From Desulfamplus sp. (GTDB lineage: Bacteria > Desulfobacterota > Desulfobacteria > Desulfobacterales > Desulfobacteraceae), in contig JADGBP010000013.1 in the NCBI GenBank assembly GCA_015231395.1, positions 1 through 14,495 on the forward strand: a stretch of DNA of 14,495 bases, in the 5' to 3' direction. The position numbers and the translations under genes were made by a program. Below are positions 1 to 14,495 of the stretch, piece after piece; position 1 is the stretch's first letter, and each line of letters starts with the position of its first letter. A model generated the notes under the pieces. The model was not told the origin of the DNA. It searched no databases and was given only the letters and a program-made list of their open reading frames with translations.

Positions 1-194
1 AAGAGAGCATCAAGGAGAGTCTGCAAAAAGCGGAAGCTCTTCGGCAGTCCATTCTCAAAAAAGCCTTTGAAGGCAGGCTTCTTACCGAAAAAGAGCTGAA
101 AGTCTGTAAACAGGAACCTGACTGGGAGCCAGCAGAGGTTTTGCTGGAGCGAATTAAGGCAAGCAAGGGGAAAAGCAATGAGCAATCAGATTGA
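1..194 (+). CDS. hsdS: Type I restriction-modification specificity subunit HsdS, C-terminal end (partial)
   Basis: The window opens inside a gene read in the frame whose codons begin at position 3 and which stops at TGA 192-194. The visible 63 residues include LRQSILKKAFEGRLL, which matches the conserved C-terminal coiled-coil end of HsdS proteins. HsdS recognises the target DNA sequence of a type I restriction-modification complex and holds the HsdM and HsdR subunits. The N-terminal part and both target-recognition domains lie upstream, so specificity cannot be read. The stop lies 17 nt inside the next gene, so translation of the two is probably coupled. The presence of hsdM at 1152 supports the assignment. 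Confidence 0.85.
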   Translation, partial: ESIKESLQKAEALRQSILKKAFEGRLLTEKELKVCKQEPDWEPAEVLLERIKASKGKSNEQSD

Positions 195-1155
195 ATTTTA
201 TCAAGGAAATGATGGTCAGACACAAATTGAAGTAAAATTTATAGATGATACCATTTGGTTGACACAACTGCAAATGGCAACCCTGTTTGATAAAGATGTA
301 AGAACAGTTAATGAACATATAAAAAACATATATAAAACAGGTGAATTAGAGATGGTTCCAACTATCCGGAAATTCCGGATAGTTCGTCAAGAAGGAGCGA
401 GGCAGGTTGAAAGAGACATTGATCATTATAATTTGGATATAATAATATCAGTTGGTTACAGAGTTAATTCCAAGCGAGGTACTCAGTTTCGCCAATGGGC
501 AACAGCTCGCCTGAAAGAGTATCTGATTCAAGGTTATGCAATCAATGAGAGACGGCTGGCGGAAAAACAACAGCAGGTTCAGGTGCTCAAGGACGGTATT
601 AGAATCATCAACCGGGCATTAGAACAGAGTGTCACATCCATTGACATGGATTGGTTAAAGCTGTTTTCACGGGGCTTAACCCTTCTGGATGATTATGACC
701 ATGAAACTCTGGATGCCAAAGGGGTGACAACACAGGAGGTGCATTATCCAGATTATGAAGAGTATATGGAGTTTATACAATCCATGTATTCTGATTTTGA
801 ATCCGGTGTGTTTGCCAAAGAAAAGGACAATGGTTTTCACAGCTCCATCAATCAGATAAAACAGAGTTTTGGAGATCAGGATCTATATCCCAGCCTTGAG
901 GAAAAGGCTGCTATGCTTCTGTATTTCATAGTCAAAAATCACTCTTTTGTGGATGGCAATAAACGCATTGCCGCCGCTTGCTTTATCTATTTTCTTAAAG
1001 AGAACAATCATCTTATGAAACCTGACGGACAGCCAGTCATCAGCAATGAAGCTCTGGCCAGCCTCACCCTTTTTGTGGCTGTCAGCAATCCCGCCGAGAT
1101 CTATACTGTAAAGAATTTAATTATCAGTGTATTAAACAGGAGCAAAAAAGAGTGA
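178..1155 (+). CDS. RhuM family protein fused to a Fic/Doc domain
   Basis: This 325-residue protein has two parts. Residues 1 to about 130 match the RhuM ('virulence protein RhuM') family, with the typical run TIRKFRIVRQEG at 62-73, then YNLDIIISVGYRVNS and RQWAT; an HTH-like stretch (IWLTQLQMATLF) lies near 26-37. The C-terminal part carries a complete Fic-type active site, HSFVDGNKR, at residues 255-263 (positions 940-966), with catalytic His255. Lysine before the last Arg, in place of the Gly of AMP-transferring Fic proteins, resembles Doc, which phosphorylates EF-Tu. An AAGGGG ribosome site lies 7 nt before the ATG. The gene overlaps hsdS by 17 nt and hsdM by 4 nt, so it is an integral cistron of the R-M operon. 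RhuM function is unknown; toxin or accessory defence activity is inferred. No separate antitoxin gene or clear inhibitory helix motif is seen. Confidence 0.85.
   Translation: MSNQIEFYQGNDGQTQIEVKFIDDTIWLTQLQMATLFDKDVRTVNEHIKNIYKTGELEMVPTIRKFRIVRQEGARQVERDIDHYNLDIIISVGYRVNSKRGTQFRQWATARLKEYLIQGYAINERRLAEKQQQVQVLKDGIRIINRALEQSVTSIDMDWLKLFSRGLTLLDDYDHETLDAKGVTTQEVHYPDYEEYMEFIQSMYSDFESGVFAKEKDNGFHSSINQIKQSFGDQDLYPSLEEKAAMLLYFIVKNHSFVDGNKRIAAACFIYFLKENNHLMKPDGQPVISNEALASLTLFVAVSNPAEIYTVKNLIISVLNRSKKE
360..384. repeat. Perfect 25-nt inverted repeat inside the RhuM coding region
   Basis: The arms aactatccggaa (360-371) and ttccggatagtt (373-384) are exact reverse complements, separated by one base. 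The segment encodes TIRKFRIV, which is typical for the family at this place, so the symmetry may be a by-product of codon choice. It could also fold in the mRNA or act as an operator-like site. No function can be assigned from sequence alone. Confidence 0.6.
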
Positions 1156-2636
1156 GTGAATCAGCAGGAATCATTTCAAAGGTATGGAATTTTGCCAATG
1201 TCCTACGTGACGATGGTGTGGGTTATGGCGACTATCTGGAGCAAATCACCTATCTGCTTTTTCTGAAAATGGCAGATGAGTTCAGCAAACCTCCCTACAA
1301 CAGAGATACCAATATCCCTGAAGCGTACAACTGGGAGAGCATTGCCACCAAAAAAGGGGCGGAGCTTGAGCTTCACTATATCACGCTATTACGGGAGCTG
1401 GGGCAGGCAACAGGTACTTTGGGGCAGATATTTACCAAGGCACAGAACAAGATTCAGGACCCGTCAAAACTCTCGAAAATCATTGACATGATCGACAAGG
1501 AAGCGTGGAGCACAATGGGTTCAGACCTCAAAGGCAAAATCTATGAGGGGCTGCTTGAAAAAAACGCCGAAGATACCAAAAGCGGGGCTGGGCAATACTT
1601 TACACCCCGTGCACTTATCAGGGCAATGGTTGAGTGTGTCCAGCCAAAGCCCATGAAAACCATTGTTGATCCTGCATGCGGTACTGGCGGGTTCTTTCTG
1701 GCTGCCTATGACTACCTTACAAGGAAGGGCAACACCCTTGACAGAGAGCAAAAAGAGTTTTTGAAAAACAAGACCTTTCATGGAAACGAAATTGTAGCCA
1801 ACACCCGCAGAATGTGTTTGATGAACATGTTTCTTCATGACATCGGCGAGATTGACGGAACCTCTTTTATCTCCTCGGCTGATGCCCTTATTTCAGATGA
1901 GGGTGTACGGTACGACTATGTGCTGGCAAACCCTCCCTTTGGCAAAAAAAGCAGCATGACCATAACCAACGAAGAGGGGGAACAAAAAAAAGAGGAACTG
2001 AGCTACAACCGTCAGGATTTCTGGGCAACAACATCAAACAAGCAGCTTAACTTTCTTCAGCATATCAAAACCCTTCTTAAAATCAACGGTGAGGCAGCAG
2101 TCGTGCTTCCTGACAACATCCTGTTTGAAGGCGGAGCCGGGGAGACCGTCAGAAAAGAGCTGATGAAAACAACCGAACTTCATACAATCTTGAGACTTCC
2201 CACAGGTATTTTCTATGCAAACGGGGTAAAAGCCAATGTGCTCTTTTTTGATAACAGGCCGGCATCAAAAGATGCCTGGACAAAAGAGGTATGGATCTAC
2301 GACTATAGAACAAATATCCACCACACCCTTAAAAAGAAGACAATGGGTTTAGAGGATTTAAGAGAGTTCATTGAACTTTATAGCCCTGAAAACAGACACA
2401 AGAGAAAGCAGAACTGGAGTCCTGAAAATGAAGAGGGTCGATGGCGAAAATTCAGCTATGAAGAGATTCTGGCACGGGATAAAACCAACCTTGATATCTT
2501 CTGGCTAAAGGATAAATCCCTTGCAGATCTGGACAATCTTCCTGATCCTGATATTCTGGCTTTTGAGATTATCCAGAGTATTGAAGCGGGACTTGATTGT
2601 TTCAGAGAGATATACAGTGAAATTTCCCCTGAATAG
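1152..2636 (+). CDS. hsdM: Type I restriction-modification DNA methyltransferase subunit HsdM (N6-adenine)
   Basis: This 494-residue protein, a normal length for HsdM, transfers a methyl group from S-adenosylmethionine to adenine N6 at the site chosen by HsdS. Residues 1 to about 120 match the N-terminal helical domain (VGYGDYLEQITYLLFLKMADE). GQYFTPR is at 147-153, the SAM-binding motif I DPACGTGG at 173-180, and the catalytic motif IV NPPF at 260-263. All are intact, so the enzyme should be active. The start is GTG at 1152, whose last bases overlap the TGA of the RhuM-Fic gene (GTGA). AGGAG lies 9 nt upstream at 1138-1142. The order hsdS, rhuM-fic, hsdM puts the methylase last, and hsdR is not visible; it may lie before hsdS. 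No clear terminator hairpin follows. Confidence 0.95.
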   Translation: MSESAGIISKVWNFANVLRDDGVGYGDYLEQITYLLFLKMADEFSKPPYNRDTNIPEAYNWESIATKKGAELELHYITLLRELGQATGTLGQIFTKAQNKIQDPSKLSKIIDMIDKEAWSTMGSDLKGKIYEGLLEKNAEDTKSGAGQYFTPRALIRAMVECVQPKPMKTIVDPACGTGGFFLAAYDYLTRKGNTLDREQKEFLKNKTFHGNEIVANTRRMCLMNMFLHDIGEIDGTSFISSADALISDEGVRYDYVLANPPFGKKSSMTITNEEGEQKKEELSYNRQDFWATTSNKQLNFLQHIKTLLKINGEAAVVLPDNILFEGGAGETVRKELMKTTELHTILRLPTGIFYANGVKANVLFFDNRPASKDAWTKEVWIYDYRTNIHHTLKKKTMGLEDLREFIELYSPENRHKRKQNWSPENEEGRWRKFSYEEILARDKTNLDIFWLKDKSLADLDNLPDPDILAFEIIQSIEAGLDCFREIYSEISPE

Positions 2637-3063
2637 AGAGAGGTCACCTGCCTTGTAAAAACAAAAGCATATGATACTGAACATTAAAAAACGGTCTGTC
2701 AATCATGCCTTGAAAATCCTGTCTGACAAATAATAGTCGTTTTAAACAGTCGTTTTATCAAACAAATGAAACAAAGAATTATTCAAAAATGGGATTTTGT
2801 TAAAATGGGTTGACATGGCGTTGATAATAAGAGAAAAAGTACAACACTTAAAATTATGCGTCATGATAATTTTCTATATTTTTATTATACATTGAGTTTC
2901 AAACATTGAGTTTCTTATTATTACAGATTGAGTTTCAAACTGATATATATTGATATATTGTAGCCGTAACGTGCTCTTTATATTAACTTTTAAACATTAA
3001 TTTTTAAACATTAATTTACATACTATACCCAATATGTAAACACACTACCATTTTAATATAATT
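2637..3063. other. AT-rich intergenic spacer with short direct repeats
   Basis: No convincing gene lies in these 427 bases. Three copies of attgagtttc occur at 2891-2900, 2905-2914 and 2927-2936; the first and third extend to attgagtttcaaac. A perfect 14-bp tandem duplication, ttttaaacattaat, covers 2988-3001 and 3002-3015. A promoter for the downstream gene is expected here, but I could not find a -35/-10 pair with good spacing. The repeats could be binding sites or simply slippage products. Confidence 0.55.
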
Positions 3064-4407
3064 ATGGAGGATAAATTTAAAAGCATGGGTGAAGCGGCAA
3101 TTAAAATTGGAAAAAAACACAAAAGTGTTTTTAAAGACAAGGTGATGGAGCTTCTGCCCAACGGCGGAAACCTCAATGCCTGTCTGACATGCGGTGCATG
3201 TGCGTCAGGGTGTCCTGCCACCGGTCTTGAAGGGATGGATCCAAGAAAATTCCTGAGAATGGCGGCCCTTGGAATGGATGAAGAGATATTGAGCACAAAA
3301 TGGGCGTGGATGTGTACCATGTGTCAAAGATGCGTCTATGTATGTCCTATGGAAATCAACATTCCGCAACTTGTATTTCATGTAAGAAAATCATGGCCAA
3401 GAGAAAACAAGCCCAGAGGTATTGTGGGTTCCTGTGACCAGGCTCTGAAAAATGATACATGCAGTGCCATGGGTGCAACAGAAGAGGATTTCGAATTTGT
3501 TGTGAGCGATGTTTTAGAAGAGTATCAGGAAGCCCAACCTGAGTTTGCTGAGATGACAGCAGATGTCAACAGGGAGGGTGCGTATTATGTTCTGAATCAG
3601 AACTCAAGAGAACCTGTGACAGAACCGGATGAGATGGTACCTTTATGGAAAATTCTTCACCTTGCCGGTGCTGACTGGACATACAGCTCAAAAGGATTTG
3701 CAGCGGAAAACTACTGCCTGTTCATGGCAGAAGATGACAACTGGGAAAAAATTGTAAGAATAAAAGCAAAAGCTGTGGATGATCTCGGAGCCAAAGTCTG
3801 GCTCAACACCGAGTGAGGGCACGAACTATTCGCAGTCCTGGTAGGACTGAAAAAATTCAAAATTGAACACAAGTTTGAGATTAAAAGCATAATTCAACTT
3901 TATGCACAGTGGATCAGGGAAGGAAAACTCAAACCCAGTTCCGAGTGGAATAAAGAGAGACAAATCAAATTTACGGTACAAGATCCTTGTCAGCTTGTAA
4001 GAAAAACATTGGGCGATCCTGTTGCAGACGATCTTCGTTATGTAGTTAAGGCTGTGGTTGGTGAAGAGAATTTTGTTGATATGACCCCCAACAAATCAAA
4101 CAACTTCTGCTGCGGTGGCGGCGGTGGTTTCCTCCAATCCGGCTACCCTGAGGCAAGACAGGCATATGGACAGACAAAAGCAAATCAGATACTTGCAACC
4201 AAGGCGGCTTACTGCATAACTCCATGCCATAACTGTCATGCTCAAGTGCATGATCTCAGCGATATTCATGGACATGCATGGCAGACAGTTCATCTGTGGA
4301 CGCTGCTCTGCCTCTCCCTTGGTATTCTTGGTCCTAAAGAGAGGGCATATCTTGGAGAAGATCTTGTAGATGTTGATGTATTCCATCCTGAGTCAGGGGA
4401 CGAATAA
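3064..4407 (+). CDS. Selenocysteine-containing Fe-S oxidoreductase, HdrD/DsrK-like (4Fe-4S dicluster plus CCG domain)
   Basis: The frame is open from 3064 to the stop at 4405-4407 except for one in-frame TGA at 3814-3816. Read as selenocysteine it gives one 447-residue protein. Two 4Fe-4S motifs lie at C40-C43-C46-C50 and C84-C87-C90-C94. A cysteine-rich CCG domain follows: Sec251-Gly-His, DPC (C309), NFCCGGGGG (C349, C350) and CITPCHNC (C384, C388, C391). The spacing C-x39-CC-x37-CxxC fits the family that binds a non-cubane cluster in HdrB/HdrD. The TEUGHE segment sits where DsrK-like relatives, as I recall them, have ECGHA. Such proteins pass electrons to disulfide or sulfur substrates, often on a membrane complex; no partner subunit is encoded beside it. 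A SECIS-like hairpin follows the TGA. The start is uncertain: ATG 3064 has no ribosome site, while ATG 3085 (residue 8) has GGAGG at 3066-3070, 14 nt before it. A nonsense mutation or sequencing error is the alternative. Confidence 0.85.
3814..3849 (+). promoter_or_regulatory. UGA selenocysteine codon with candidate bacterial SECIS hairpin
   Basis: The in-frame TGA is at 3814-3816. Downstream, CAGUCCU (3833-3839) and AGGACUG (3843-3849) form a perfect 7-bp stem closed by the triloop GGU (3840-3842). Bacterial SECIS elements lie inside the coding region just after UGA and carry a conserved guanine at the start of a small apical loop, about 16-37 nt from UGA; the E. coli fdhF loop also begins GGU. 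Here 23 nt separate UGA from the first loop G. The hairpin codes in frame for AVLVGL. The lower stem near UGA is poorly paired. Function requires SelB, SelA, SelC and SelD, none of which is in the window. Confidence 0.85.
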
Positions 4408-4504
4408 GAATAACGCCCCTTAAAATCTCATATTTTAATTGTTTATAGTTCAAAAGCTATATCTAAAGAGCTGCAAAATTAAGCAGTGAACCTTATTCAT
4501 TTAC

Positions 4505-4549
4505 AAAAAGCCCGTTGCAGATTATATTTCTGTAGTGGGCTTTTTTTTT
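4505..4549 (+). terminator. Rho-independent terminator after the selenoprotein gene
   Basis: Positions 4505-4521 pair with 4529-4545 in a 17-bp stem with three G-U pairs and a 7-nt loop. The core is GCCC (4510-4513) with GGGC (4537-4540). A run of nine T (4541-4549) follows, and the A run on the left arm could let it work on the other strand too. It lies about 100 nt after the stop at 4407 and separates this gene from the next one. Confidence 0.88.
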
Positions 4550-4554
4550 ACCAT

Positions 4555-4643
4555 ATAATTAAATTGGCAGATTAGGTGGCAATCCCTGCTGTTGCCCTTC
4601 TTAAAAAGAAGAGATACCAAAATATTTTTCTGGAAGTCTATAG
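4555..4643 (+). repeat. 89-bp dispersed repeat, copy A
   Basis: This segment recurs as its reverse complement at 11302-11390. Both are 89 bp and I judge them to be roughly 80-85% identical. The outer parts are best kept: ataattaaattggca at one end, and aaaatatttttctggaagtc followed by tatag at the other. Inside is a short inverted repeat, ggcaa (4578-4582) with ttgcc (4592-4596). Similarity continues weakly into the T tract of the terminator on the left. It has no coding capacity and looks like a small palindrome-bearing interspersed repeat (REP or MITE type). Confidence 0.8.
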
Positions 4644-4686
4644 AATTGCCCATACCGTTTGAAATAAAAGATGAACAGGGAGACCA

Positions 4687-6453
4687 ATGACTGCAAAAAA
4701 AGGAAAACCACCAGTTGGATATTCAGATTTTAAAAATTTACGGGAACAAGAATTGTATTATGTTGATAAGACGCTTCTGATTAAAAAAATCTGGGAGAAT
4801 TCATCACAGGTTCTGCTTTTTCCACGTCCCAGACGTTTTGGCAAGACACTCAATTTATCAATGCTGCGTTATTTCTTTGAAAAAATTGATGATTCCACTA
4901 CAAGTGATAATTCCAAGGTAAATGATGATTCCAAAGTAAGCCTCTCAGGACTGAGTGATGATTCCAGCACAAGCCTATCAAGACTGTTTGAGGGGCTTTT
5001 TATTTCAAAACAACCTGAAATCATAACCCATCAGGGGCAATATCCTCTGATTTATCTGACATTCAAGGATGTTAAGGAGATGACATGGGAAAATTGTCTC
5101 TACCAGTTGAGACTTCTACTTGCTTCCGAGTTTTCGAGGCATAAGGCTTATTTTTTAAATGTTTTTTTAGAACTCGAAGAATCTGAAATTTTAAACGCTC
5201 TCCACGATCCCCTGACACCATCAGCCCCTTTGGCAATGGCACTTTCTTGTTTGATGAAAATTCTCAATCGTGCGACTGGACAGAAAATTATTGTCCTGAT
5301 CGATGAATATGACACCCCGATTCATGCGGGACACCAATACGGCTATTACGAAGAGGTGATTCTGTTCATGCGGAATCTATTAAGCGGGGCATTTAAAGAC
5401 AATTCCTACCTTGAAAAAGGGGTAATGACCGGAGTTCTGAGGATTTCAAAGGAATCTATTTTTACAGGCTTGAACAATATCTCGGTAAGTTCTATCACCT
5501 GTCCTGAATTTAGTAGTTATTTTGGTTTTACTGAAACAGAAGTAGAAAAAATACTCCGAGATTTTTCTGTAGAACATCCGCAGGAAGTGAAAGACTGGTA
5601 TAATGGTTATATTTTTGGCAGACAGGTCATATACAATCCTTGGTCTATTATAAACTTTTTAAATAGCGAAGACCGTGACTTAAAACCCTACTGGATTGAC
5701 TCAAGCAGCAATGATCTTGTTCGTGATTTGATTCTGAATGGTCCGATCTCTTTGCGTGAAAGTGTGGCAACTTTATTGCGTGGCGAATCCATCAGCTCTG
5801 TTCTGCCTGAAAATATCGTGCTTCGTGACATTGCCGCAACTGAGGAAAATATCTGGAGTTTACTGACCTTTAGTGGTTATCTGAAAGCATTAAATCCGAG
5901 AATGGAAGGCACACGTATTGTATATGATTTATCGATTCCAAACATGGAGGTACTTCGTTTTTATGAGGATACGATTCAAAGCTGGCTCAGGCAGCAGATT
6001 GGAGATCATCGTCTTCAACAGTTGCTCAAATCGCTGCTGCAAGAAGATATTGCAAGTTTTGAACAATACCTTCAAGATATGGTAGCGACAGTCCTGAGTT
6101 ATCATGACACATCAGGAGATGAACCGGAACGTGTTTATCATGCCTTTGTGCTTGGATTGTTTGTAAACCTTGGCTCTCAATATGAAATACGTTCCAACAG
6201 GGAATCAGGCTATGGACGCTATGATGTGATGCTTATTCCCAAAAATCCACAACAGACTGGCTTTGTTTTTGAATTCAAGAAAGTCGATGGAAAGTATGAT
6301 AAAACTGCTAAAACTGCTATAAAGAGTGCACTCAGACAAATTCAGGAGAGGAAATACGCTTTGGAACTGAGACAAACAGGTGTTCAGAGGATTCTTGGCA
6401 TAGGCGTGGTTGTTCATAAGAAAAAAGTGTGGGTTGAAGCAGTGGAGTTATGA
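4687..6453 (+). CDS. AAA-ATPase-like / PD-(D/E)XK nuclease superfamily protein
   Basis: This 588-residue protein matches the widespread two-domain family of an 'AAA-ATPase-like' N-terminal domain and a PDDEXK nuclease-like C-terminal domain. GYSDFKNLREQELYYVDKT at the start is family-typical. The Walker A-like loop is PRPRRFGKT (46-54) and the Walker B is IVLIDEYD (202-208). The C-terminal site is D513 (in GRYDV), then E529-F-K531, separated by 15 residues as in PD-(D/E)XK enzymes, so both centres look intact. The family's role is unproven; defence, mobile-element or repair activity has been suggested on general grounds. Residues 68-101 are a Ser/Asp-rich insertion made of tandem DNA repeats. 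GGGAG lies 4 nt before the ATG. The gene stands alone between a terminator with repeat copy A and the 17-bp array, which may suggest past mobility. Confidence 0.88.
   Translation: MTAKKGKPPVGYSDFKNLREQELYYVDKTLLIKKIWENSSQVLLFPRPRRFGKTLNLSMLRYFFEKIDDSTTSDNSKVNDDSKVSLSGLSDDSSTSLSRLFEGLFISKQPEIITHQGQYPLIYLTFKDVKEMTWENCLYQLRLLLASEFSRHKAYFLNVFLELEESEILNALHDPLTPSAPLAMALSCLMKILNRATGQKIIVLIDEYDTPIHAGHQYGYYEEVILFMRNLLSGAFKDNSYLEKGVMTGVLRISKESIFTGLNNISVSSITCPEFSSYFGFTETEVEKILRDFSVEHPQEVKDWYNGYIFGRQVIYNPWSIINFLNSEDRDLKPYWIDSSSNDLVRDLILNGPISLRESVATLLRGESISSVLPENIVLRDIAATEENIWSLLTFSGYLKALNPRMEGTRIVYDLSIPNMEVLRFYEDTIQSWLRQQIGDHRLQQLLKSLLQEDIASFEQYLQDMVATVLSYHDTSGDEPERVYHAFVLGLFVNLGSQYEIRSNRESGYGRYDVMLIPKNPQQTGFVFEFKKVDGKYDKTAKTAIKSALRQIQERKYALELRQTGVQRILGIGVVVHKKKVWVEAVEL
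4888..4989 (+). repeat. In-frame tandem repeat inside the ATPase/PDDEXK gene
   Basis: Four units begin with gatgattcca or gataattcca: two of 18 bp (4888-4905, 4906-4923) and two of 33 bp (4924-4956, 4957-4989). All are multiples of 3, so the frame is kept. They encode a Ser/Asp/Lys-rich insert (DDSTTS, DNSKVN, DDSKVS, DDSSTS) that interrupts the usual short link between the P-loop helix and the FEGL strand. Confidence 0.8.
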
Positions 6454-6494
6454 AAATAATTCACATAAGCCTTGATATTTATCTGGAAAACTAT

Positions 6495-6697
6495 AAAAAC
6501 CAGTTGTCTTTAAAAACCAGTTGTCTTTAAAAACCTGTTGTCTTTAAAAACCCGTTGCCTTGAAAAACCCGTTGCCTTGAAAAACTTGTTGCCTTGAAAA
6601 ACCCGTTGCCTTGAAAAACCCGTTGCCTTGAAAAACCCGTTGCCTTGAAGAACCAGTTACCTTGAAAAACCATTGCCCGGATTAACCCGCTACCCGG
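6495..6697 (+). repeat. 17-bp minisatellite array in the leader of the REC-FapA gene
   Basis: About twelve head-to-tail units fill most of the 261-base gap before the gene at 6715. The consensus is aaaaacccgttgccttg. Units at 6546, 6563, 6597, 6614 and 6631 are identical. The first three (6495, 6512, 6529) form a variant ending tgtcttt, and the last two (6665-6680, 6681-6697) drift to the ending cccgg. The array ends 4 nt before the ribosome-binding site. A 17-bp unit is not a multiple of 3, as expected outside a gene. There are no unique spacers, so it is not a CRISPR array. Confidence 0.95.
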
Positions 6698-6700
6698 ATT

Positions 6701-6707
6701 AAAGGAG
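6701..6707 (+). promoter_or_regulatory. Ribosome binding site of the REC-FapA gene
   Basis: AAAGGAG lies 7 nt before ATG 6715 and just after the last 17-bp repeat. It fixes the start codon and places the array in the untranslated leader. Confidence 0.85.
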
Positions 6708-6714
6708 CCATTAG

Positions 6715-9700
6715 ATGCCAGATAAAAAAACGATACTGATTGTTGATGATCAAGAATCAATCATCAAAGCCCTGAGGCGACTTTTATTGTCTGAAGGATA
6801 TGATATTCTATCTGCACCGGACGGACCTTCCGCTCTGAAACTTATCACAAACAGCAAAGATAAAAGTGAGCTTTTTTTAATCATCTCTGACCAGCGGATG
6901 CCTGAAATGACCGGTACCCAGTTTCTGGAAAAAACAATGGACATTCTCCCTGATGCCATTCGATTTATTTTATCCGGCTATGCGGACAGAGATGATGTTA
7001 ACAACGCATTCAAGAAAGGAGTTGTCCACAAGTTTCTTAACAAACCCTGGAACAATGATGAGCTTCTTATCCTTATTAGTCAGGCTTATGAGTCTCCTGA
7101 AAAATTAAAAACTTTTGCATCTTCCGATAGTCAAGAATCTGGATTACCCAATATAAACATCATGGACAAGGAGATTAAAAAATTTTATGAGAATCATAAT
7201 AACAAAGTCCTTGGAAAACTTGCAGTATATCATGGATTCATTACTCAAGAGCAGTTAGATACAGCGTTGACAATCATGCAGAGTGAACAGCAGGCAGGAC
7301 GAAATGTTGCATTGGAGAATATTCTGTTTGAGAAAGGGCTTGTCTCATCGGAAAATATAGGTAAAATCTTAGCCACAACCCGAAGAAGAGTAGGTAAAAT
7401 ATTTGGAAAAATTGCCATAAAGAACTTTGGCGTCTCTCAGACAGATATTGAAAGATGCCTTGCAATTCAGTCAAAGGAGTTCAGTGACACATCTACCTGT
7501 CGCCTTCTTGGAGATATTCTTGTGTCAGAAAAAATCCTGACAGAAGAGCAGAAGGAATCCATTGTCATTGATCAGGTGTATTCTGAAACGGAGGTATTAA
7601 GATCAGGCATTGCTGGTTCAGGTGTAAATAGCAAAGTCAGTGACGATACTGGAAGTAGAACTACTGATACTGGAAGTAGAACCGCTGGAAATAGGAGCAC
7701 TGGAAATACAGCCACTGGAAATAGTGGCACTGAATATACAAGTACAACTGACTCAACTAAAACAGAGGCTATCAAAGGCGACGGAACAAATGACATACAG
7801 ATGCCTCAAAATGAGCTTATCCTTAACAAACGGAAAAAAAATTTTTTCCGGCGGCGAGCACTTGACAAGATATTCTGCAAATCTGCCATCAACAGAAACT
7901 ACGCGACCGAGCAGGAAGTTTTAAAGGCTTTGGAAGAACAACTGCTCCATTTTACCAAAACATTTGAACTCAAATTGGTAAAAGATATTCTGATTGAGCA
8001 CTCCATCATTTCAAAAGACCAGGCAGAAATCATTATCGCTGCGACCTCACACTCTAAACCATCACCGGATTCTGTTTCGGGAGTAGTAAATACAGCGTCG
8101 TCTCCACAAGTGGCGGCGAGCGGCACGGAAAAAATCACTGGTACTGAAAAAGGTGAAGGAAAAATTACTGATACAGGTAAAATCACTGGTAAGGAAAAAA
8201 TTATTGGTACGGAACAAACCGTAACAAATTCTGAAAAAACCATCTATATCGGTGAAAAAAATGCTTTTGAATTAACTTTATCTCCCCTGAACATTGAGGC
8301 TTCAATTCGGCTTATAGGGACTATGCCTGAAATTATGGACACAGATCGATTAAAGGTGCTGCTTGCCGAAAATCAGATAGTTTATGGTCTTGCCAGTGAT
8401 GTGGCTATTGAACTGTTTCTCCAACATGCTGCCGAAAAAAAAGAGAAGTTTATAATTGCCAAGGGCAGACATGCAAAACCTGGGCGCGATGCCTTGGTGA
8501 AATATTATTTTGAGGATGAAAATACCCGTTTTGGCAAGGAACTCTCCTCAGGTAAATTTGATTACAGGGAAAGAGGCGAAATACTCAATGTCACACAGGG
8601 GAGTATTCTTGCTGAAAAAATTCCATTTATACCGCCAGTCAACGCCATTACAGTTTTTGGCACGGAAATTCCAGAACCCGCTCCGCTGGATCTTACCCTG
8701 ACTGCTGGAAAAGGAGTTGGGATCTCCCAAGATGGATTAAAAGCCATTGCCCTGGTCAGTGGCAGACCAGATATGTCCCTGGGAGGCAAAATCAGTATCA
8801 TGTCCGAGAAACTTATCAAGGGCAATGTGGATTTTAAAACAGGAAATGTGAAGTTTTTAGGGGATATCATCGTTCAGGGAACAATACTGGCAGGATTCAG
8901 TGTAATGGGTAACAACCTTACTGTAAATGATATTGAAGAGGCGGAGATTAATGTTGCGAATACGCTTATTGTAAAAAACAGTATCAATAATTCAAATATT
9001 AAAGTTGGTGGAAATATCACCGCCCAGTTTATTAAAAAGAGTACTGTTTTTGCTAACTGCGATGTGGTCGTCATGAAGGAGATTATTGATTCCACAATAA
9101 TTACCAGCGGCAGAGTAATTGTCCAGCGTGGCAGAATTATGTCAAGCATAATTCATGCTGCAAAAGGGATTGAAGCCATGAATATCGGTAGCGAGGTCTC
9201 TTCTCCCTGCCAGTTGTTCTTAGGTTCAAATCATCATTCTAAAGGGATTCTTGACACTTTATCCCAAAAAATTGACTACCAGCAAGAGTATCTGCTCAAA
9301 CTTGAAGCCCTTAATCAACAGTATGACCAAAAGAGCATACAGCAGTTGAACAGCTTAGCTGATGTGTCACGAATTCAGGAAAGACTGTTTTTGGAAAAGC
9401 AGAAAATTATGGAGGAACAAAAAGGAGTTACAAATGCCATTGTTAAAAAACAGATGGATGATTTTCTGGTTGACCTTAACAAAAAGTTATTGAAGATGGA
9501 TGAAACCATAAACAAACTATTTGATGACAATGAAATTATGCAGACCAACTCCAAGGAGATCAAGGTTAAAATCAAAACTGTCAAGACAGCGTTAGAGCAG
9601 TTGAAAAATGAAAAAATCGGGTTTGAAACATGGTATGAAGATCAACAAAAGGCTGCCAGAGTAAATGGTATTAATCTTCTGGTTCAGGGTACAGTCACTG

Positions 9701-9858
9701 CCGGTACCGTTATTAACGGAACAGAGAGCAGTATGATAGTAAAGAACCCCATAAAAAATTCAAAAATCAGACAGGTTATAAACAGTGAAAATATCAATAA
9801 AATATTCCACGAAATCAAAGTGGAGTTAATGATTAAAAGCGGAAAAATGCATGCTTAA
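6715..9858 (+). CDS. Response-regulator receiver fused to FapA (DUF342) polymer-like domain
   Basis: This 1047-residue protein begins with a receiver domain (about 4-128): acidic pair D11-D12, phosphoacceptor D59 in SDQRMPEMTG, S87 and K110-P111. The SGYAD...KFLNKPW pattern is typical of receivers attached to signalling outputs. Three related helical modules follow at about 160-225, 226-290 and 376-446; modules 2 and 3 share the pattern FxKxAI..., then LxxDILxExxIxxxQ. These recall the N-terminal modules of GspE/MshE-type proteins. They are separated by Thr/Gly/Ser-rich linkers (303-362, 456-507) made of DNA repeats. From about 510 to 840 is a FapA domain with the stacked beta repeats GNVDFKTGNVKFLGD (703-717) and onward. 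A coiled coil (about 845-985) and a short beta end follow. FapA proteins are tied to flagellar assembly or polar placement in some bacteria; the role here is unknown. The stop overlaps the next gene by 8 nt, so it is probably the output of the adjacent kinases. Confidence 0.88.
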   Translation: MPDKKTILIVDDQESIIKALRRLLLSEGYDILSAPDGPSALKLITNSKDKSELFLIISDQRMPEMTGTQFLEKTMDILPDAIRFILSGYADRDDVNNAFKKGVVHKFLNKPWNNDELLILISQAYESPEKLKTFASSDSQESGLPNINIMDKEIKKFYENHNNKVLGKLAVYHGFITQEQLDTALTIMQSEQQAGRNVALENILFEKGLVSSENIGKILATTRRRVGKIFGKIAIKNFGVSQTDIERCLAIQSKEFSDTSTCRLLGDILVSEKILTEEQKESIVIDQVYSETEVLRSGIAGSGVNSKVSDDTGSRTTDTGSRTAGNRSTGNTATGNSGTEYTSTTDSTKTEAIKGDGTNDIQMPQNELILNKRKKNFFRRRALDKIFCKSAINRNYATEQEVLKALEEQLLHFTKTFELKLVKDILIEHSIISKDQAEIIIAATSHSKPSPDSVSGVVNTASSPQVAASGTEKITGTEKGEGKITDTGKITGKEKIIGTEQTVTNSEKTIYIGEKNAFELTLSPLNIEASIRLIGTMPEIMDTDRLKVLLAENQIVYGLASDVAIELFLQHAAEKKEKFIIAKGRHAKPGRDALVKYYFEDENTRFGKELSSGKFDYRERGEILNVTQGSILAEKIPFIPPVNAITVFGTEIPEPAPLDLTLTAGKGVGISQDGLKAIALVSGRPDMSLGGKISIMSEKLIKGNVDFKTGNVKFLGDIIVQGTILAGFSVMGNNLTVNDIEEAEINVANTLIVKNSINNSNIKVGGNITAQFIKKSTVFANCDVVVMKEIIDSTIITSGRVIVQRGRIMSSIIHAAKGIEAMNIGSEVSSPCQLFLGSNHHSKGILDTLSQKIDYQQEYLLKLEALNQQYDQKSIQQLNSLADVSRIQERLFLEKQKIMEEQKGVTNAIVKKQMDDFLVDLNKKLLKMDETINKLFDDNEIMQTNSKEIKVKIKTVKTALEQLKNEKIGFETWYEDQQKAARVNGINLLVQGTVTAGTVINGTESSMIVKNPIKNSKIRQVINSENINKIFHEIKVELMIKSGKMHA
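7645..7746 (+). repeat. In-frame tandem repeat, first linker of the REC-FapA protein
   Basis: Two 21-bp units (7645-7665, 7666-7686; gatactggaagtagaac plus variable bases) are followed by four 15-bp units from 7687 to 7746 (ggaaatanNNNcact type, the last one degraded). All keep the frame and encode a Thr/Gly/Ser-rich flexible linker such as TGNTATGNSGTEYTS. Confidence 0.8.
8122..8217 (+). repeat. In-frame 18-bp tandem repeat, second linker of the REC-FapA protein
   Basis: Degenerate 18-bp units of the type ggtacggaaaaaatcact lie at 8122, 8152, 8170 and 8188, with 12-bp partial units at 8140 and 8206. They encode hexapeptides such as GTEKIT, GEGKIT, DTGKIT and GKEKII just before the FapA domain. 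Confidence 0.75.
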
Positions 9859-11287
9859 AGACAATAAAAACATCACAGAAGACAACAAAAGAATTCTGAT
9901 CATTGATGATGACGAGGGAATACGAGAGACATATCAGGGCATTTTCGCACCGGAAGAAGAGTCTGACATCCTGCAAAAAGGAGCAACTCTTTTTGGTGCT
10001 ATCTCTTCTGAAAAGCCAAAATCAAGGGAAAAGAGAAATTATCAACTCTCTGTTGCTGAAAATGGAACTCAGGGAATTGAGCTTGTAAAAAAAAACATAA
10101 TTAATAACAGACCAATTGCAGTTGCCTTTGTTGACATGAAAATGCCGGGAATCAACGGAGCCGAGACTTCAAAGCTGATATGGGATATTGACCCGAGAAT
10201 TAAAATTGTTATTGTAACTGCCTACAGCGAATATACCCCTGATGATATAATTGCCACAACCGGAAGGGATGATATATTTTATTTAAGAAAACCATTCAAC
10301 CATGAAGAAATTCTCCAGTTTGCCCGTGCTTTAACCAATGAATGGAATTTGGAACATACTCAGGAGCTGCTTAAAATACAGCTTGAATCTGCTAACGAAG
10401 CTCTTGGGAATATGAACAAAACACTTGAAGATATGAACAAAGACCTTAAGGGAAAAGTCGAAAAACAGGCATCCCTGATTGTGCAGGCAGACAAAATGGC
10501 ATCCGTGGGACTTCTTGCCGCTGGCGTTGCCCATGAAATCAACAACCCGCTCTCTTTTATTAATGGCAACCTTTTAACACTCAAACGATATCTGGAAAAA
10601 CTTGATGCTCTTAACCTGAAATATGCAGAGATAGAGATGTTTCTCCGTTACTCTGGTCTTGAAAACGCACCAGCACTTCTGAATGAGCTGGCAGTATTCA
10701 AAATTGAGAATAAAATAGAGCTTATAATGACTGATATCAAAGATCTTACTGATGAATCCCTTGATGGAACAGATCGGATTAAAACCATTATCAATGACTT
10801 GAAAACATTCTCAAGGATTGATGAAGCCGAATACACCTCTTTGGATATCAATAAGGCAATTGACACCACCATCAATATTTTGTGGAATGAGCTAAAATAC
10901 AAGACTGAAATTGTAAAAAAGTATGGAACGATTCCTCAAATAAGATGTTATCCTCAAAAAATAAGCCAAGTGCTTATGAACCTTATTCTGAACGCGGCTC
11001 AAGCATTGAATGATCAAGGCTCAATTACCATAACTACAAAATTTGTCACAAAAGAAGATGACGATTTTATTCAAATTATCATTGCGGATACAGGATGCGG
11101 GATTCCAAAGGAGAACCTGAACCGGCTTTTTGAACCTTTTTTCACCACTAAGCCCGTGGGACAGGGAACCGGACTGGGTCTGAGCATTACATATGACATT
11201 ATCAAGTTACATAATGGGACTATTGAGGTATCAAGCGAGCTGGGTAAAGGGACTGAGTTTGTTGTAACAATGCCTGTCGGGGATTAA
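9851..11287 (+). CDS. Hybrid protein: N-terminal receiver and C-terminal histidine kinase
   Basis: This 478-residue protein has no membrane segment or sensor domain, so it is probably cytoplasmic. The receiver (about 14-160) has D19-D21, phosphoacceptor D95 (VDMKMPGING), T123 and K147-P148. Between the first strand-helix unit and QLSVAENG it holds an extra segment, roughly residues 32-63. A coiled coil (about 165-215) leads to a canonical H-box, AGVAHEINNPLSFI with H228. The ATPase domain has the N-box N377/N381, DTGCGIP from D413, FEPFFTTK and GTGLGLSI from about 439. All catalytic motifs are intact. ATG 9851 lies inside the end of the REC-FapA gene (8-nt overlap), so the two are co-translated. 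It is a likely phosphodonor for the FapA receiver, and its own receiver may take phosphate from another kinase. Confidence 0.92.
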   Translation: MLKDNKNITEDNKRILIIDDDEGIRETYQGIFAPEEESDILQKGATLFGAISSEKPKSREKRNYQLSVAENGTQGIELVKKNIINNRPIAVAFVDMKMPGINGAETSKLIWDIDPRIKIVIVTAYSEYTPDDIIATTGRDDIFYLRKPFNHEEILQFARALTNEWNLEHTQELLKIQLESANEALGNMNKTLEDMNKDLKGKVEKQASLIVQADKMASVGLLAAGVAHEINNPLSFINGNLLTLKRYLEKLDALNLKYAEIEMFLRYSGLENAPALLNELAVFKIENKIELIMTDIKDLTDESLDGTDRIKTIINDLKTFSRIDEAEYTSLDINKAIDTTINILWNELKYKTEIVKKYGTIPQIRCYPQKISQVLMNLILNAAQALNDQGSITITTKFVTKEDDDFIQIIIADTGCGIPKENLNRLFEPFFTTKPVGQGTGLGLSITYDIIKLHNGTIEVSSELGKGTEFVVTMPVGD

Positions 11288-11462
11288 ATAAAAGATAATT
11301 ACTATAGACTTCCAGAAAAATATTTTGATATCTCAATTTTTAAGAAGGGCAACCGCAAGGGATTGCCCCTACTCTTGCCAATTTAATTATCTGGAAAACT
11401 GTACAATGCAATAGAAGGTAACTAAGGCAATGTTGGCTATCGGAGGGGGGATAGGGTAAGAA
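11288..11462. other. Intergenic spacer holding repeat copy B and a G-rich leader
   Basis: The gap between the two kinase genes contains the inverted 89-bp repeat at 11302-11390. About 70 bases follow with a G-rich stretch, cggagggggg, at 11441-11450, which is a possible ribosome site 12 nt before TTG 11463. No intrinsic terminator is evident, so read-through into the next kinase is possible. Confidence 0.5.
11302..11390 (-). repeat. 89-bp dispersed repeat, copy B (inverted)
   Basis: This is the reverse complement of the segment at 4555-4643. The internal inverted repeat is stronger here: gggcaa (11347-11352) with ttgccc (11363-11368), a 6-bp stem with a 10-nt loop. The flank ttatctggaaaact at 11387-11400 is also present, alone, at about 6479-6492, which may mark a fragment of the same element. 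The two copies bracket 4644-11301. Confidence 0.8.
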
Positions 11463-12476
11463 TTGAAAAAAAAATCACAAAAAAAAGAAAAGAGTGAGAG
11501 TTTACAATCCTACAAAGAGAGAGCTGCTTCCTATTATAAATATCTACAGAAGTTGATCTGGCGACTTGAACAGATACTGATTAATAATGAAAACGAGTTT
11601 GAACAGCTAAAACGAGAACTTGTCAACAAAGCTATAGATTCAGGGAGAGCAGAGCTCTCAGCCATGCTCCTGCACAATATAGGAAATGCCATAACACCGA
11701 TTTCCATCTATACCGAGAGTCTCAAAAACAGAAACTCTCTACAAACCTACCGCTATCTTTCCATGTGTTACAATGACCTTCTGGAACATAAAGATGATTT
11801 AACGCGATACGTTACAACAGATTCAAGAGGAGTTGAAATTATGAAGTATATGGGAACTCTAATTGAGAATCTTGAAGCCGACTGCAAGAACGTCACAGAT
11901 ATCATAGATAAAATTGATACTGGAATTAATTATGTTTCACAGGCTCTCACACTTCAGCGTGATTATTTGCCCAGCAAAAACCGCGTAAAGGAGAGAATTG
12001 ATATAAACCTTCTAATATACGATGCACTTAAAATGCAGGCGAGTTCTATCTCCAAACGCAACATCACTTTGAAAAAAAATTTGCTGGAGACTATTCCCTA
12101 TATCATTATGGAAAAAAACAGGCTTATGCAGGTGATTGTCAATCTTATAAAAAACAGTTGCGATTCCATTGACGAACACAAAGAGCGGACAGACCATCAG
12201 ATTTTGATCTCCACCTACAGTAATGAAAAGCATATTGGATTGAAAATTACAGATACAGGTATCGGTGTTGAAAAGGAACGTCAGATGGAGATATTTAATT
12301 TTGGAGTATCAAGCAAGGGGTCATCAGGTTTTGGGCTTTATTACTGCAAAAGTCTGATTGAGGAATATAATGGAACTTTAACGATTGAAAGCCCTGGCAG
12401 AGGATCAGGTGCAACCGTTATCATGGAAATTCCCTACGCTTCCAGCAAGATAAATACTCTTGCGGAGAAAATCTGA
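11463..12476 (+). CDS. Orphan histidine kinase with HNIGN-type H-box
   Basis: This 337-residue soluble kinase has no receiver and no sensor domain, only a Lys-rich start and a predicted coiled coil (about 15-60). The phosphoacceptor is H71 in LHNIGNAITPI; Asn follows His where Glu or Asp is usual. The ATPase domain has an N-box with N227 and N231, DTGIGV from D264, and SSKGSSGFGLYYCK with the G2 box near 289. The start is set at TTG 11463: an in-frame TAA at 11457-11459 blocks extension upstream, and the first internal ATG falls at residue 68, inside the H-box helix. The C-terminal 280 or so residues are closely similar to those of the next gene, so the two form a tandem duplicate. The stop is one base before the next ATG. 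It probably phosphorylates a neighbouring receiver. Confidence 0.88.
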   Translation: MKKKSQKKEKSESLQSYKERAASYYKYLQKLIWRLEQILINNENEFEQLKRELVNKAIDSGRAELSAMLLHNIGNAITPISIYTESLKNRNSLQTYRYLSMCYNDLLEHKDDLTRYVTTDSRGVEIMKYMGTLIENLEADCKNVTDIIDKIDTGINYVSQALTLQRDYLPSKNRVKERIDINLLIYDALKMQASSISKRNITLKKNLLETIPYIIMEKNRLMQVIVNLIKNSCDSIDEHKERTDHQILISTYSNEKHIGLKITDTGIGVEKERQMEIFNFGVSSKGSSGFGLYYCKSLIEEYNGTLTIESPGRGSGATVIMEIPYASSKINTLAEKI

Positions 12477-12477
12477 T

Positions 12478-13761
12478 ATGGATAGCAATATAGATAGCAA
12501 TGTGGCTACCAAAATTCTTGTTATTGATGATGAAGTCTATATAAGAACTGGTATTAAAAATTTTCTTGAAGATTACAATTTTAAAGTTCTTGATGCTGAA
12601 AATGGTCGGCAGGGACTCGAATGCTTTGAGCGGGAATCTCCGGACATTGTATTTTGTGATCTTATTATGCCTGAATTAGGTGGACTTGAAGTTCTTGACC
12701 ATATCGTTAAAATATCTCCAGACACCCCGATTATTATTGTTTCGGGCGTAAATGATCTTTCAAATACTATGATAGCATTGAAAGCCGGTGCATGGGATTA
12801 TATAATCAAACCAGTACAAGACATGACAGTTCTGCTGCATGCCATTGAAAAGTCTCTTGAAAAAGTTGCCCTGATCAGGGAAAAAGACATGTACAAAAAA
12901 AGACTTCTTAATGAAGCTGTGGATGCCGGAAGAACACAGTTGTCAGCCATGATTCTGCACAATATTGGCAATGCCATCACACCAGTTTCGGTCTATGCGG
13001 CAAACCTGAAAAAGAAAAATCCAGTTCAGAACTACCGCTATCTTGCCCAGTGCTACAGTGATCTTATGGAGCACAAAGATAATCTGACCGAATACATTTC
13101 AAAAGATCCCAGAGGTTCTGCTGTTATAAAATACATGGGAACCCTGATTGAAAATCTTGAATCTGATAACAATCACTCCACAGAAATCATAGATAAAATT
13201 GCATCTGGCGTTGATTATGTTGCACATATTGTCACAATCCAGCGTGACTACGCACCTGATAAAATTGAAGTCAAGGAGAGAATCAATATAAACCTTATAG
13301 TAGAAGATGCCCTGCAAATGCAAAAAGGCTCAATATCCAAACTCAATATAACGATTAAAAAAAATTTGCTGAATCCCATTCCCCAAATCATCATGGAAAA
13401 AAACAAACTTATGCAGGTGCTTGTCAATCTTATAAAAAACAGTTGTGATGCCATTGACGAAAACAAGGAGCGGACAGAGCATCAACTTGATATAACCACC
13501 TACTGTAATCAACAGCGTATTGGATTGGAAATCAGGGATACAGGTATAGGCGTTGATATTGAACTGCAAAAAAGTATTTTTGATTTTGGCACATCAAGTA
13601 AGGGTTCATCAGGGTTTGGTCTTTATTATTGCAAAAGCTTTTTGGAGGCAAATAAAGCTACGTTGACACTTGAAAGCCAGGGAAGAGGACTCGGATCCAC
13701 AGTTACCATGGAAATTCCCTTTGTTCCTGTTCGTCAAAATACTTCTCTGTCTGGAGAGTAA
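12478..13761 (+). CDS. Receiver-histidine kinase hybrid, paralogue of the preceding kinase
   Basis: This 427-residue protein starts with a receiver (about 11-125): D17-D18, phosphoacceptor D61 in FCDLIMPELGG, S89 and K111-P112. The kinase part repeats the layout of the upstream kinase: H161 in ILHNIGNAITPV, NRYRYLAQCY-like helices, N-box VNLIKNSCDAI, DTGIGV from D354 and SSKGSSGFGLYYCK. Start choice: ATG 12478, one base after the previous stop, with GGAG at 12463-12466 upstream; a TTG at 12460 in the same frame would add six residues and is less likely. The neighbouring kinase may phosphorylate this receiver. The protein lacks membrane segments. It is probably co-transcribed with the genes on both sides. 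Confidence 0.92.
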   Translation: MDSNIDSNVATKILVIDDEVYIRTGIKNFLEDYNFKVLDAENGRQGLECFERESPDIVFCDLIMPELGGLEVLDHIVKISPDTPIIIVSGVNDLSNTMIALKAGAWDYIIKPVQDMTVLLHAIEKSLEKVALIREKDMYKKRLLNEAVDAGRTQLSAMILHNIGNAITPVSVYAANLKKKNPVQNYRYLAQCYSDLMEHKDNLTEYISKDPRGSAVIKYMGTLIENLESDNNHSTEIIDKIASGVDYVAHIVTIQRDYAPDKIEVKERININLIVEDALQMQKGSISKLNITIKKNLLNPIPQIIMEKNKLMQVLVNLIKNSCDAIDENKERTEHQLDITTYCNQQRIGLEIRDTGIGVDIELQKSIFDFGTSSKGSSGFGLYYCKSFLEANKATLTLESQGRGLGSTVTMEIPFVPVRQNTSLSGE

Positions 13762-13767
13762 TGAGTC

Positions 13768-14495
13768 ATGAAGAGTATTGATTTATCCTCTTCTATTGAT
13801 TTATCCTCTCCGATTGATTTGTCCTCTCCGATTGATTTGTCCTCTCCTCTCAAGATAAAAGGCATATCTATTAAAAACCGGCTTTTTCTTGCCCCGATGG
13901 CAGGGCTTGGGCATGTGGCATTCAGAGAGCTTGTTGCAGAGTTTGGAGGTTTTGGACTTCTTTTTACTGGTATGTGCAGTGCAAAAGCAATTCCTCAGGA
14001 AAACCGTAATATCTCAAAAGTATTTAAATGGAGAGATGAAGAGCTTCCATATCTTGTGTGTCAGATATTTGGATCAGATGTTCACAGCATGGTAGCCGCT
14101 GCCCAAAGAGTTGAAAAAGAGGGCTTTTTTGGTGTTGACCTGAATTTTGGATGCTGTGCCGCCGCTATCTGCAAAAAAGGAAGTGGTGCTGCATTATTAA
14201 AGAATCCTGCTCTGGCAAGAGATATTGTAGCAGCAGTGAGGCAGAATATCAGCATACCGCTTTTTGTTAAATTCAGAACCGGATGGGAGAATAGTTCCCT
14301 TGATGCAGCACAGATGGCAGCATCTTTTGAAGATGCCGGAGCAGATGCCTTGGTATTTCACCCCAGAGTGGCACCAGACAGACGGTTACGCCCTCCGAAA
14401 TGGGAACATATCCGGCTGGTCAAAGAGGCGGTTTCCATACCGGTATTTGGAAATGGCAATATTTTCGAGGCTTCAGATTGTGAAAATATGCTTAA
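13768..14495 (+). CDS. tRNA-dihydrouridine synthase (Dus family), N-terminal part
   Basis: The frame is open from ATG 13768 to the window end, about 242 residues of an expected 320-350. Dus enzymes use FMN and NADPH to reduce uridines in tRNA. After a repeat-made leader (residues 4-27), the TIM barrel begins at NRLFLAPMAGLGHVAFRELV. Further signatures are LVCQIFG, VDLNFGC with the conserved Cys, KKGSGAALL, FVKFRTGW, VFHPR and IPVFGNGNI. The usual Gly-Cys-Pro at the active site is Gly-Cys-Cys here. The ATG lies 6 nt after the kinase stop, and ggagag in the end of the kinase gene serves as ribosome site, so it is likely the last-read cistron of the same transcript. Which Dus subfamily it belongs to cannot be decided. 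Confidence 0.9.
   Translation, partial: MKSIDLSSSIDLSSPIDLSSPIDLSSPLKIKGISIKNRLFLAPMAGLGHVAFRELVAEFGGFGLLFTGMCSAKAIPQENRNISKVFKWRDEELPYLVCQIFGSDVHSMVAAAQRVEKEGFFGVDLNFGCCAAAICKKGSGAALLKNPALARDIVAAVRQNISIPLFVKFRTGWENSSLDAAQMAASFEDAGADALVFHPRVAPDRRLRPPKWEHIRLVKEAVSIPVFGNGNIFEASDCENML
13777..13848 (+). repeat. In-frame 18-bp tandem repeat at the start of the Dus gene
   Basis: Four units of attgatttRtcctctccg type lie at 13777, 13795, 13813 and 13831. They encode IDLSS plus Ser or Pro four times, directly before the conserved barrel. The extension is not part of the Dus family core and probably arose by slippage. Confidence 0.92.

Follow-up and report, generated by a model that had tools for sequence, protein, structure and literature searches.

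A predicted selenocysteine-containing, HdrD-like Fe–S oxidoreductase encoded across an in-frame UGA in Desulfamplus sp.

The window considered here, i.e., the whole analysed stretch of 14,495 nucleotides (contig JADGBP010000013.1, positions 1 to 14,495, forward strand), originates from a Desulfamplus sp. genome (GCA_015231395.1) whose 2.8-Mb assembly is distributed over 548 contigs and is 52% complete. At positions 3064–4407, one reading frame (frame +1) runs from ATG 3064 to TAA 4405–4407, and its sole internal stop is the TGA at 3814–3816 (codon 251). This agrees with an earlier note on the same DNA, which had placed both halves in one frame around a single TGA and had pointed to the residues DPC (307–309), CCGGGGG (349–355), and CHNC (388–391) on its 3′ side; all three are indeed found there in the same frame. 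The residue numbering of that note, counted from ATG 3064, is kept throughout. The features of the gene are as follows.

3064..4407, + strand: whole gene read through the UGA, predicted HdrC–HdrB fusion (HdrD-like) selenoprotein of 447 aa from ATG 3064 (frame, Pfam, NCBIfam, fold)
3066..3070, + strand: GGAGG, probable ribosome-binding site, 14 nt before ATG 3085, a spacing longer than in relatives
3085..4407, + strand: probable true coding region from ATG 3085, 440 aa, Sec244 (upstream comparison with seven relatives)
3181..3213, + strand: first 4Fe–4S motif, Cys40/43/46/50, HdrC-like (Cys in 153/153 genes; Pfam Fer4_8 over cut-off)
3313..3345, + strand: second 4Fe–4S motif, Cys84/87/90/94 (Cys in 153/153; Pfam Fer4_8)
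3814..3816, + strand: UGA predicted to be read as selenocysteine, residue 251 from ATG 3064, EUGH motif (TGA/Cys column comparison, Cys in DsrK)
3833..3849, + strand: predicted bacterial SECIS hairpin, 7 bp (pairing across relatives, covariation, bSECIS model)
3840..3842, + strand: apical loop GGU of the SECIS hairpin, 23 nt downstream of the UGA (first loop base G in 130/130 TGA genes)
3988..4236, + strand: C-terminal CCG motif, Cys309, Cys349–350, Cys388, and Cys391, predicted catalytic 4Fe–4S site (PF02754 over cut-off; all five Cys in 153/153)

The gene is flanked upstream by RhuM/Fic and HsdM genes and downstream by an AAA-ATPase/PDDEXK gene, and no HdrA-like gene was detected among the window genes scanned. 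The RhuM/Fic-domain gene overlaps that of an HsdM-type N6-methylase (178–2636), and neither an HsdR nor an HsdS domain showed up in any of the seven genes scanned in the window; the two genes occupy the place of a large divergent helicase-like gene in relatives L036–L039. The downstream gene (4687–6453, AAA-ATPase_like and PDDEXK_9) lies between the selenoprotein gene and a FapA-like gene and was probably inserted, since it is absent from that place in L038 and L039. The FapA-like gene itself (6715–9858) encodes a response-regulator and FapA protein common to L038 (51% identity) and L039 (50%), and local synteny is kept, because the gene to which it is 51% identical stands beside the orthologue in L038. 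Farther downstream, two adjoining histidine-kinase-like genes (11463–13761) share long near-identical stretches (HNIGNAITP, SSKGSSGFGLYYCKS) and probably represent a tandem duplication. They are followed by a gene (window 13768–13870) which resembles a tRNA-dihydrouridine synthase and carries a short repeated IDLSSP stretch at its start. A scan of positions 2600–4800 returned 13 promoter-like sites (6.2 in shuffles); the two terminator-like sites that it returned lie on the minus strand.

By selenoprotein sequence, the closest relatives are Desulfamplus bins with 95–92% identity, so that the host very probably belongs to the sulfate-reducing Desulfobacteraceae. Orthologues also occur in Desulfamplus magnetovallimortis (L040), Desulfocicer vacuolatum (L042), and Desulfospira joergensenii (L043). 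Comparison with seven near relatives bears on the start codon: all have GGAGG 10–12 nt before a Met that aligns with Met8 of the window protein (ATG 3085), and L036–L039 have a stop codon in between. Since ribosome-binding site and Met are kept and the stop intervenes, translation probably starts at ATG 3085, and selenocysteine (Sec) would then be residue 244 of 440. The earlier assignment of Sec to residue 251 of 447 is supported as to the amino acid, while its numbering probably has to be shifted.

The domain content was determined from profiles and from a structural model. Pfam places dicluster 4Fe–4S domains at residues 37–99 and a CCG domain at 304–395, all over their cut-offs, and this N-terminal dicluster plus CCG architecture, by which HdrD is recognized, is also seen in the fold. 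The NCBIfam models of HmcF (NF045711, 148.8 bits), TmcB (NF045724, 136.6 bits), and DsrK (NF045796, 106.2 bits) match over most of the length of the protein; identity with any of the three was rejected, given equivalog cut-offs of 750, 735, and 400 bits, respectively. DsrK shares the ECGH position and most of the Fe–S cysteines, but carries Cys where the window protein has Sec, and Asp where it has Cys391. The 15 PDB sequences matched by a profile built from 68 sequences include HdrC, HdrB, and a 1042-aa 'Iron-sulfur-binding reductase'. The AlphaFold2 model (pLDDT 90.6, pTM 0.88) finds its best fold in EtfD of M. smegmatis (9ojn; E 6e-11, TM 0.66 by query length), followed by HdrB chains (E 9e-5 to 5e-4, TM 0.60–0.66 by target), and further by a LutA–LutB model and then racemase-like folds with weaker E-values. 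Profiles and model together characterize the protein as a predicted HdrC–HdrB fusion of the HdrD/DsrK/TmcB-like type. The likeness is one of fold for EtfD and HdrB, at 13–16% identity in the fold alignments, and one of sequence profile for methanogen HdrB and HdrC. EtfD and methanogen HdrB/HdrC work with other partners, and the methanogen cofactors (CoM-S-S-CoB heterodisulfide) would not be expected in the host.

The relatives were collected as a chosen sample (80 best loci, 30 further loci, and 60 picked stretches) into which Cys forms were deliberately included. Its 177 tblastn matches show a stop at column 251 in 153 cases and Cys in 23, the one left over being a weak match that is gapped there; every one of the 153 stops is TGA, and the Cys codons are 21 TGC and two TGT. 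Dropping the gapped match left 176, collapsing 21 identical cores left 155, and removal of two truncated second copies (L011 and L013) gave 153 distinct genes, in which the window gene (L006) was kept. They were grouped by codon and identity to the window: group A (74% or more), L143 (73%, set apart), group B (62–72%, TGA), group C (55–59%, TGA), the Cys group (51–71%), and group D (35% or less, eight TGA and two Cys).

Column 251 holds TGA in 130 of the 153 genes and a Cys codon in the other 23, and nothing else; this ratio is not a natural frequency, because the relatives were selected with Cys forms among them. Likewise, DsrK from six genomes has ECGH at this column, with Cys in 6/6. The comparison to which the earlier note had tied its reading therefore turns out in favor of it, with no residue other than Cys in any relative compared, and the gene shows the in-frame UGA aligned with a redox Cys of homologues by which selenoproteins are recognized. 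The surrounding residues are also kept: His253 is present in 152/153 genes, Gly252 is invariant in the 68-row alignment, and residues 250–253 of the window protein read EUGH, thus containing the UGH motif that marks the family. When printed against EtfD, the Cys at column 251 meets the first Cys of CPHC, where, on our reading, the first CCG half ends. A tree of 68 of the 153 genes (51 U, 17 C), the same set as in the structure alignment, was computed with column 251 left out; it requires at least five U/C changes, four of which are forced by well-supported branches.

The UGA is followed after 16 nt by the hairpin CAGUCCU-GGU-AGGACUG (3833–3849), a perfect 7-bp stem with a GGU triloop exactly as described earlier. 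The bSECIS model, according to the legend of Fig. 2A in PMC13188914, allows a loop of 3–9 nt with G in its first two positions, a stem of 4–16 bp, 16–37 nt from UGA to loop, and a minimum free energy of at most −7.5 kcal/mol. The window hairpin lies within all of these limits, with a loop of 3 nt beginning with GG, a stem of 7 bp, a distance of 23 nt, and a folding energy of −12.3 kcal/mol for the 50-nt stretch or −9.6 kcal/mol for the hairpin alone (centroid). Taken as a single sequence, the fold is not significant against shuffles (z −1.53; 11/200 shuffles fold as well). Synonymous recoding speaks for more than chance, since a stem of seven or more Watson–Crick pairs whose first or second loop base is G arose in 46 of 50,000 sequences. 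Weaker in this respect are the seven pairs formed at fixed register in 4,529 of 200,000 recodings and the comparable stem that occurs downstream of 6 of the 426 other codons in the gene.

It is the conservation across relatives that gives the SECIS assignment its force, and this sequence comparison is decisive. An average of 6.72 of the seven pairs is formed in the 130 TGA genes versus 3.30 in the 23 Cys genes, while the synonymous-recoding null amounts to 4.12 and 3.50 pairs, respectively; judged by these averages, the hairpin is under selection in the TGA genes and free of such selection in the Cys genes. All seven pairs are found in 106 of the TGA genes and six in 19 (125/130 with six or seven), and the remaining five (L170, L171, L172, L174, and L176, which all belong to group D) form a stem of 5 bp that is shifted by one base and has the loop GGUC. 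Covariation was tabulated for 49 distinct hairpins drawn from the 130 TGA genes against 500 shuffles: 91.0% of the cells are paired (80.5% in shuffles), 34 cells are changed on both sides (12.7 in shuffles), and the covariation score is 0.330 (0.162 in shuffles), none of which was reached in any of the 500 shuffles. The number of pairs changed on both sides (4) and of pair types (10) showed no excess over the shuffles (108/500 and 125/500). Sliding the partner by one to three columns left at most 49.6% paired.

One alternative is that TGA has disrupted what was once a Cys gene, or that TGC or TGT was misread; DNA alone was seen, from a fragmented assembly that is 52% complete. The same TGA is, however, present in 130 distinct genes, which come from many different genomes and studies, and the hairpin is kept in these genes and not in the Cys genes. 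Furthermore, codon changes are mostly synonymous on either side of the TGA: relative to L036, 67 synonymous and 13 non-synonymous differences were counted in the 5′ part and 57 and 8 in the 3′ part, and five other relatives behave alike (12 to 26 non-synonymous codons before the TGA or 7 to 22 after it, versus 45 to 83 synonymous). Codon-position bias carries on beyond the TGA, more than chance would give. A correction to TGC or TGT upon re-sequencing, as envisaged in the earlier note, is very unlikely because the TGA recurs at the same place in many separately assembled genomes, and a broken gene or an error of any kind is accordingly given only a marginal probability.

In the established mechanism, SelB with Sec-tRNA-Sec binds a SECIS hairpin, and Sec is inserted where translation would otherwise stop. 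The Sec reading was earlier made dependent on selB and selC in the same genome, and both are encoded in the assembly, with selB at 364.9 bits (over cut-off) and tRNA-Sec at 74.4 bits (over gathering). Of the other two genes looked for, selA was not found in this 52% complete assembly and selD gave two sub-cut-off matches of about 24 bits each, and these gaps fit its incompleteness. Across ten genomes of the genus, this one included, selA, selD, and tRNA-Sec each score over cut-off in seven, and all three do so in 3/3 congeners that are at least 90% complete. The seven full-length selD genes of the genus contain one TGA each.

Reading frame by itself cannot separate Sec from another residue, so that UGA might in principle specify, for example, Trp or Cys under a reassigned code, or be passed by plain read-through. 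Against this stand the aligned codon, which is Cys and never Trp in 23/23 non-TGA relatives, the joint presence of SECIS, selB, and tRNA-Sec, and the use of TGA as terminator: since 21 of 176 family reading frames end in TGA, it still means stop in this family. Such a decoding is hence highly improbable. Highly improbable, too, is a pair of separate genes, a 250-aa dicluster ferredoxin and an internally started CCG protein, for which the mechanical ORF list with its pieces of 250 aa and, from TTG 4009, 132 aa would speak, since the 64 codons from the TGA to TTG 4009 are in frame and aligned across relatives and the 23 Cys relatives are single proteins of 402–443 aa. All three alternatives were rejected on recurrence, in-frame alignment, the Cys column, and the SECIS. 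Given that list, a routine gene caller could well split the gene, and the annotation as two broken genes foreseen in the earlier note holds as far as the ORF list goes.

It can be said with high confidence that UGA 3814 would be read as Sec in a protein of the HdrD-like family. Instead of two broken products, the gene almost certainly yields a single selenoprotein, which belongs to the HdrD/GlpC-like 'Fe-S oxidoreductase, UGH' family. This family is already known and has been in print since at least 2006; the window gene is an additional member, as the family is described in PMC13188914, PMC2702500, and PMC8318568. In these sources, 'Fe-S oxidoreductase-like protein, PTHR43551, UGH' is among the selenoproteins predicted with high confidence (PMC13188914), a Sec Fe–S oxidoreductase is listed in a marine deltaproteobacterial genome (PMC8318568), and HdrD4 of Desulfobacterium autotrophicum HRM2 is Sec-containing, with HdrD1–4 carrying HdrC and HdrB domains (PMC2702500). 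The window protein resembles HdrD4, by description only, as a Sec-containing soluble protein with HdrC and HdrB domains from a sulfate reducer of the Desulfobacteraceae. A Fe–S oxidoreductase (GlpC) with the UGH motif is described in PMC1794560 for Deltaproteobacteria in glpC-hdrA-frhD-frhG-frhA operons. The window protein has the same UGH Sec motif but differs in setting: its gene is unlinked to such an operon, and its nearer relatives adjoin hdrA-mvhD-metV-metF or parA-parB-ispH. The terms 'GlpC', 'Fe-S oxidoreductase', and 'UGH' were not found in PMC1088965.

The gene neighborhoods of the relatives were counted for those loci whose flanks extend over 2.5 kb or more in either direction (107/153), and the names HdrA, MvhD, MetV, MetF, ParA, ParB, IspH, and HrpA were assigned by reading the sequences of the clusters. 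A match resembling HdrA was located no farther than 6 kb away in 13/57 group A loci, 1/1 for L143, 4/16 in group B, 8/8 in group C, 9/18 in the Cys group, and 7/7 in group D, leaving 44 of the 57 flanked group A loci with no HdrA within 6 kb. HdrA together with MetV or MetF is found in 11/57 A, 3/16 B, and 8/8 C loci, with L080 and L109 as examples of an operon with HdrA/MvhD/MetVF neighbors, and ParA with ParB in 22/57 A loci. The CxxU/C signature of HdrA was found at 30 places: it contains TGA in 9/9 A loci, in L143, and in 1/1 B locus, and a Cys codon in 10/10 Cys loci and 9/9 C loci. The hdrA genes with TGA in CxxU beside a Sec-hdrD are those of L078, L080, L083, L087, L090, L099, L109, L111, L141, L143, and L145. 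Judged from these codons, Sec use goes together in hdrA and hdrD neighbors, except in group C, where a Sec hdrD copy stands beside a Cys-codon hdrA.

In the genus of the window, the nearest metV-metF genes (six Desulfamplus stretches, L196–L201) are followed by two FAD proteins, HdrA/QmoA-like. An MvhD-like match is present in the five longer stretches (L197–L201), within the frame of the second FAD protein in L197–L199, and no HdrD-like match was detected in the six. Beyond the genus, an even sample of the phylum (148 genomes, that of the window included) gave matches at E 1e-140 or better in 20 genomes, and a closer search returned some match at E 0.001 in 58/58 genomes, distant paralogues included. 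Among the 26 close matches listed, one TGA is found in 20, no stop in five, and a TAA in one, with stops counted anywhere in the match.

At the molecular level, SelB with Sec-tRNA-Sec on the hairpin at 3833–3849 would insert Sec at UGA 3814. By analogy with family and fold, electrons would flow from the HdrC-like dicluster ferredoxin at the N-terminus into the HdrB-like part, and the CCG motif at the C-terminal end of the latter is predicted to hold a catalytic 4Fe–4S cluster. Sec251, at the position of ECGH in DsrK, may lie at the disulfide-reducing site or serve as a cluster ligand, and might speed up a thiol/disulfide step or lower its potential. In the relatives, the electron partner is likely to be a flavoprotein of the HdrA type. 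The partner of the window copy would have to act in trans, as we infer from the lack of linkage to hdrA-type genes.

A MetFV-HdrABC-MvhD complex is described for Moorella, and a putative metF-HdrABC for Seep-SRB1g (PMC9012536 and PMC10553843). A role together with bifurcating HdrA modules is suggested by those relatives that adjoin hdrA-mvhD and metV-metF, or hdrA, and there is about an even chance that the protein is the HdrBC-equivalent of HdrA-based bifurcating complexes, with a role beside HdrA. More tentatively, and with the odds rather against it, the clade of Sec-HdrBC fusions could provide the thiol/disulfide-handling catalytic subunit of HdrA-MvhD-MetV-MetF complexes, i.e., an electron-bifurcating methylene-tetrahydrofolate reductase in which HdrA as well as the HdrBC part contains selenium; in the genus of the window, this subunit would have been uncoupled from the operon and would work in trans, possibly shared among several HdrA-type modules. 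No description of a Sec-HdrD as part of a MetVF-HdrA-MvhD gene set was found in the literature searched, which leaves most subscription journals aside, and the passages of PMC2702500 on MetF and HdrD4 do not join the two.

With the UGA read through, what look like two broken genes would become a single functional redox enzyme. Split annotation of such genes may be frequent in the phylum, because one TGA is present in 20 of the 26 close matches listed. Moreover, Sec and Cys paralogues in one genome and hdrA neighbors that mostly share the Sec/Cys state would form a natural series, which bears on what selenium buys in the disulfide-handling Fe–S enzymes of sulfate reducers.
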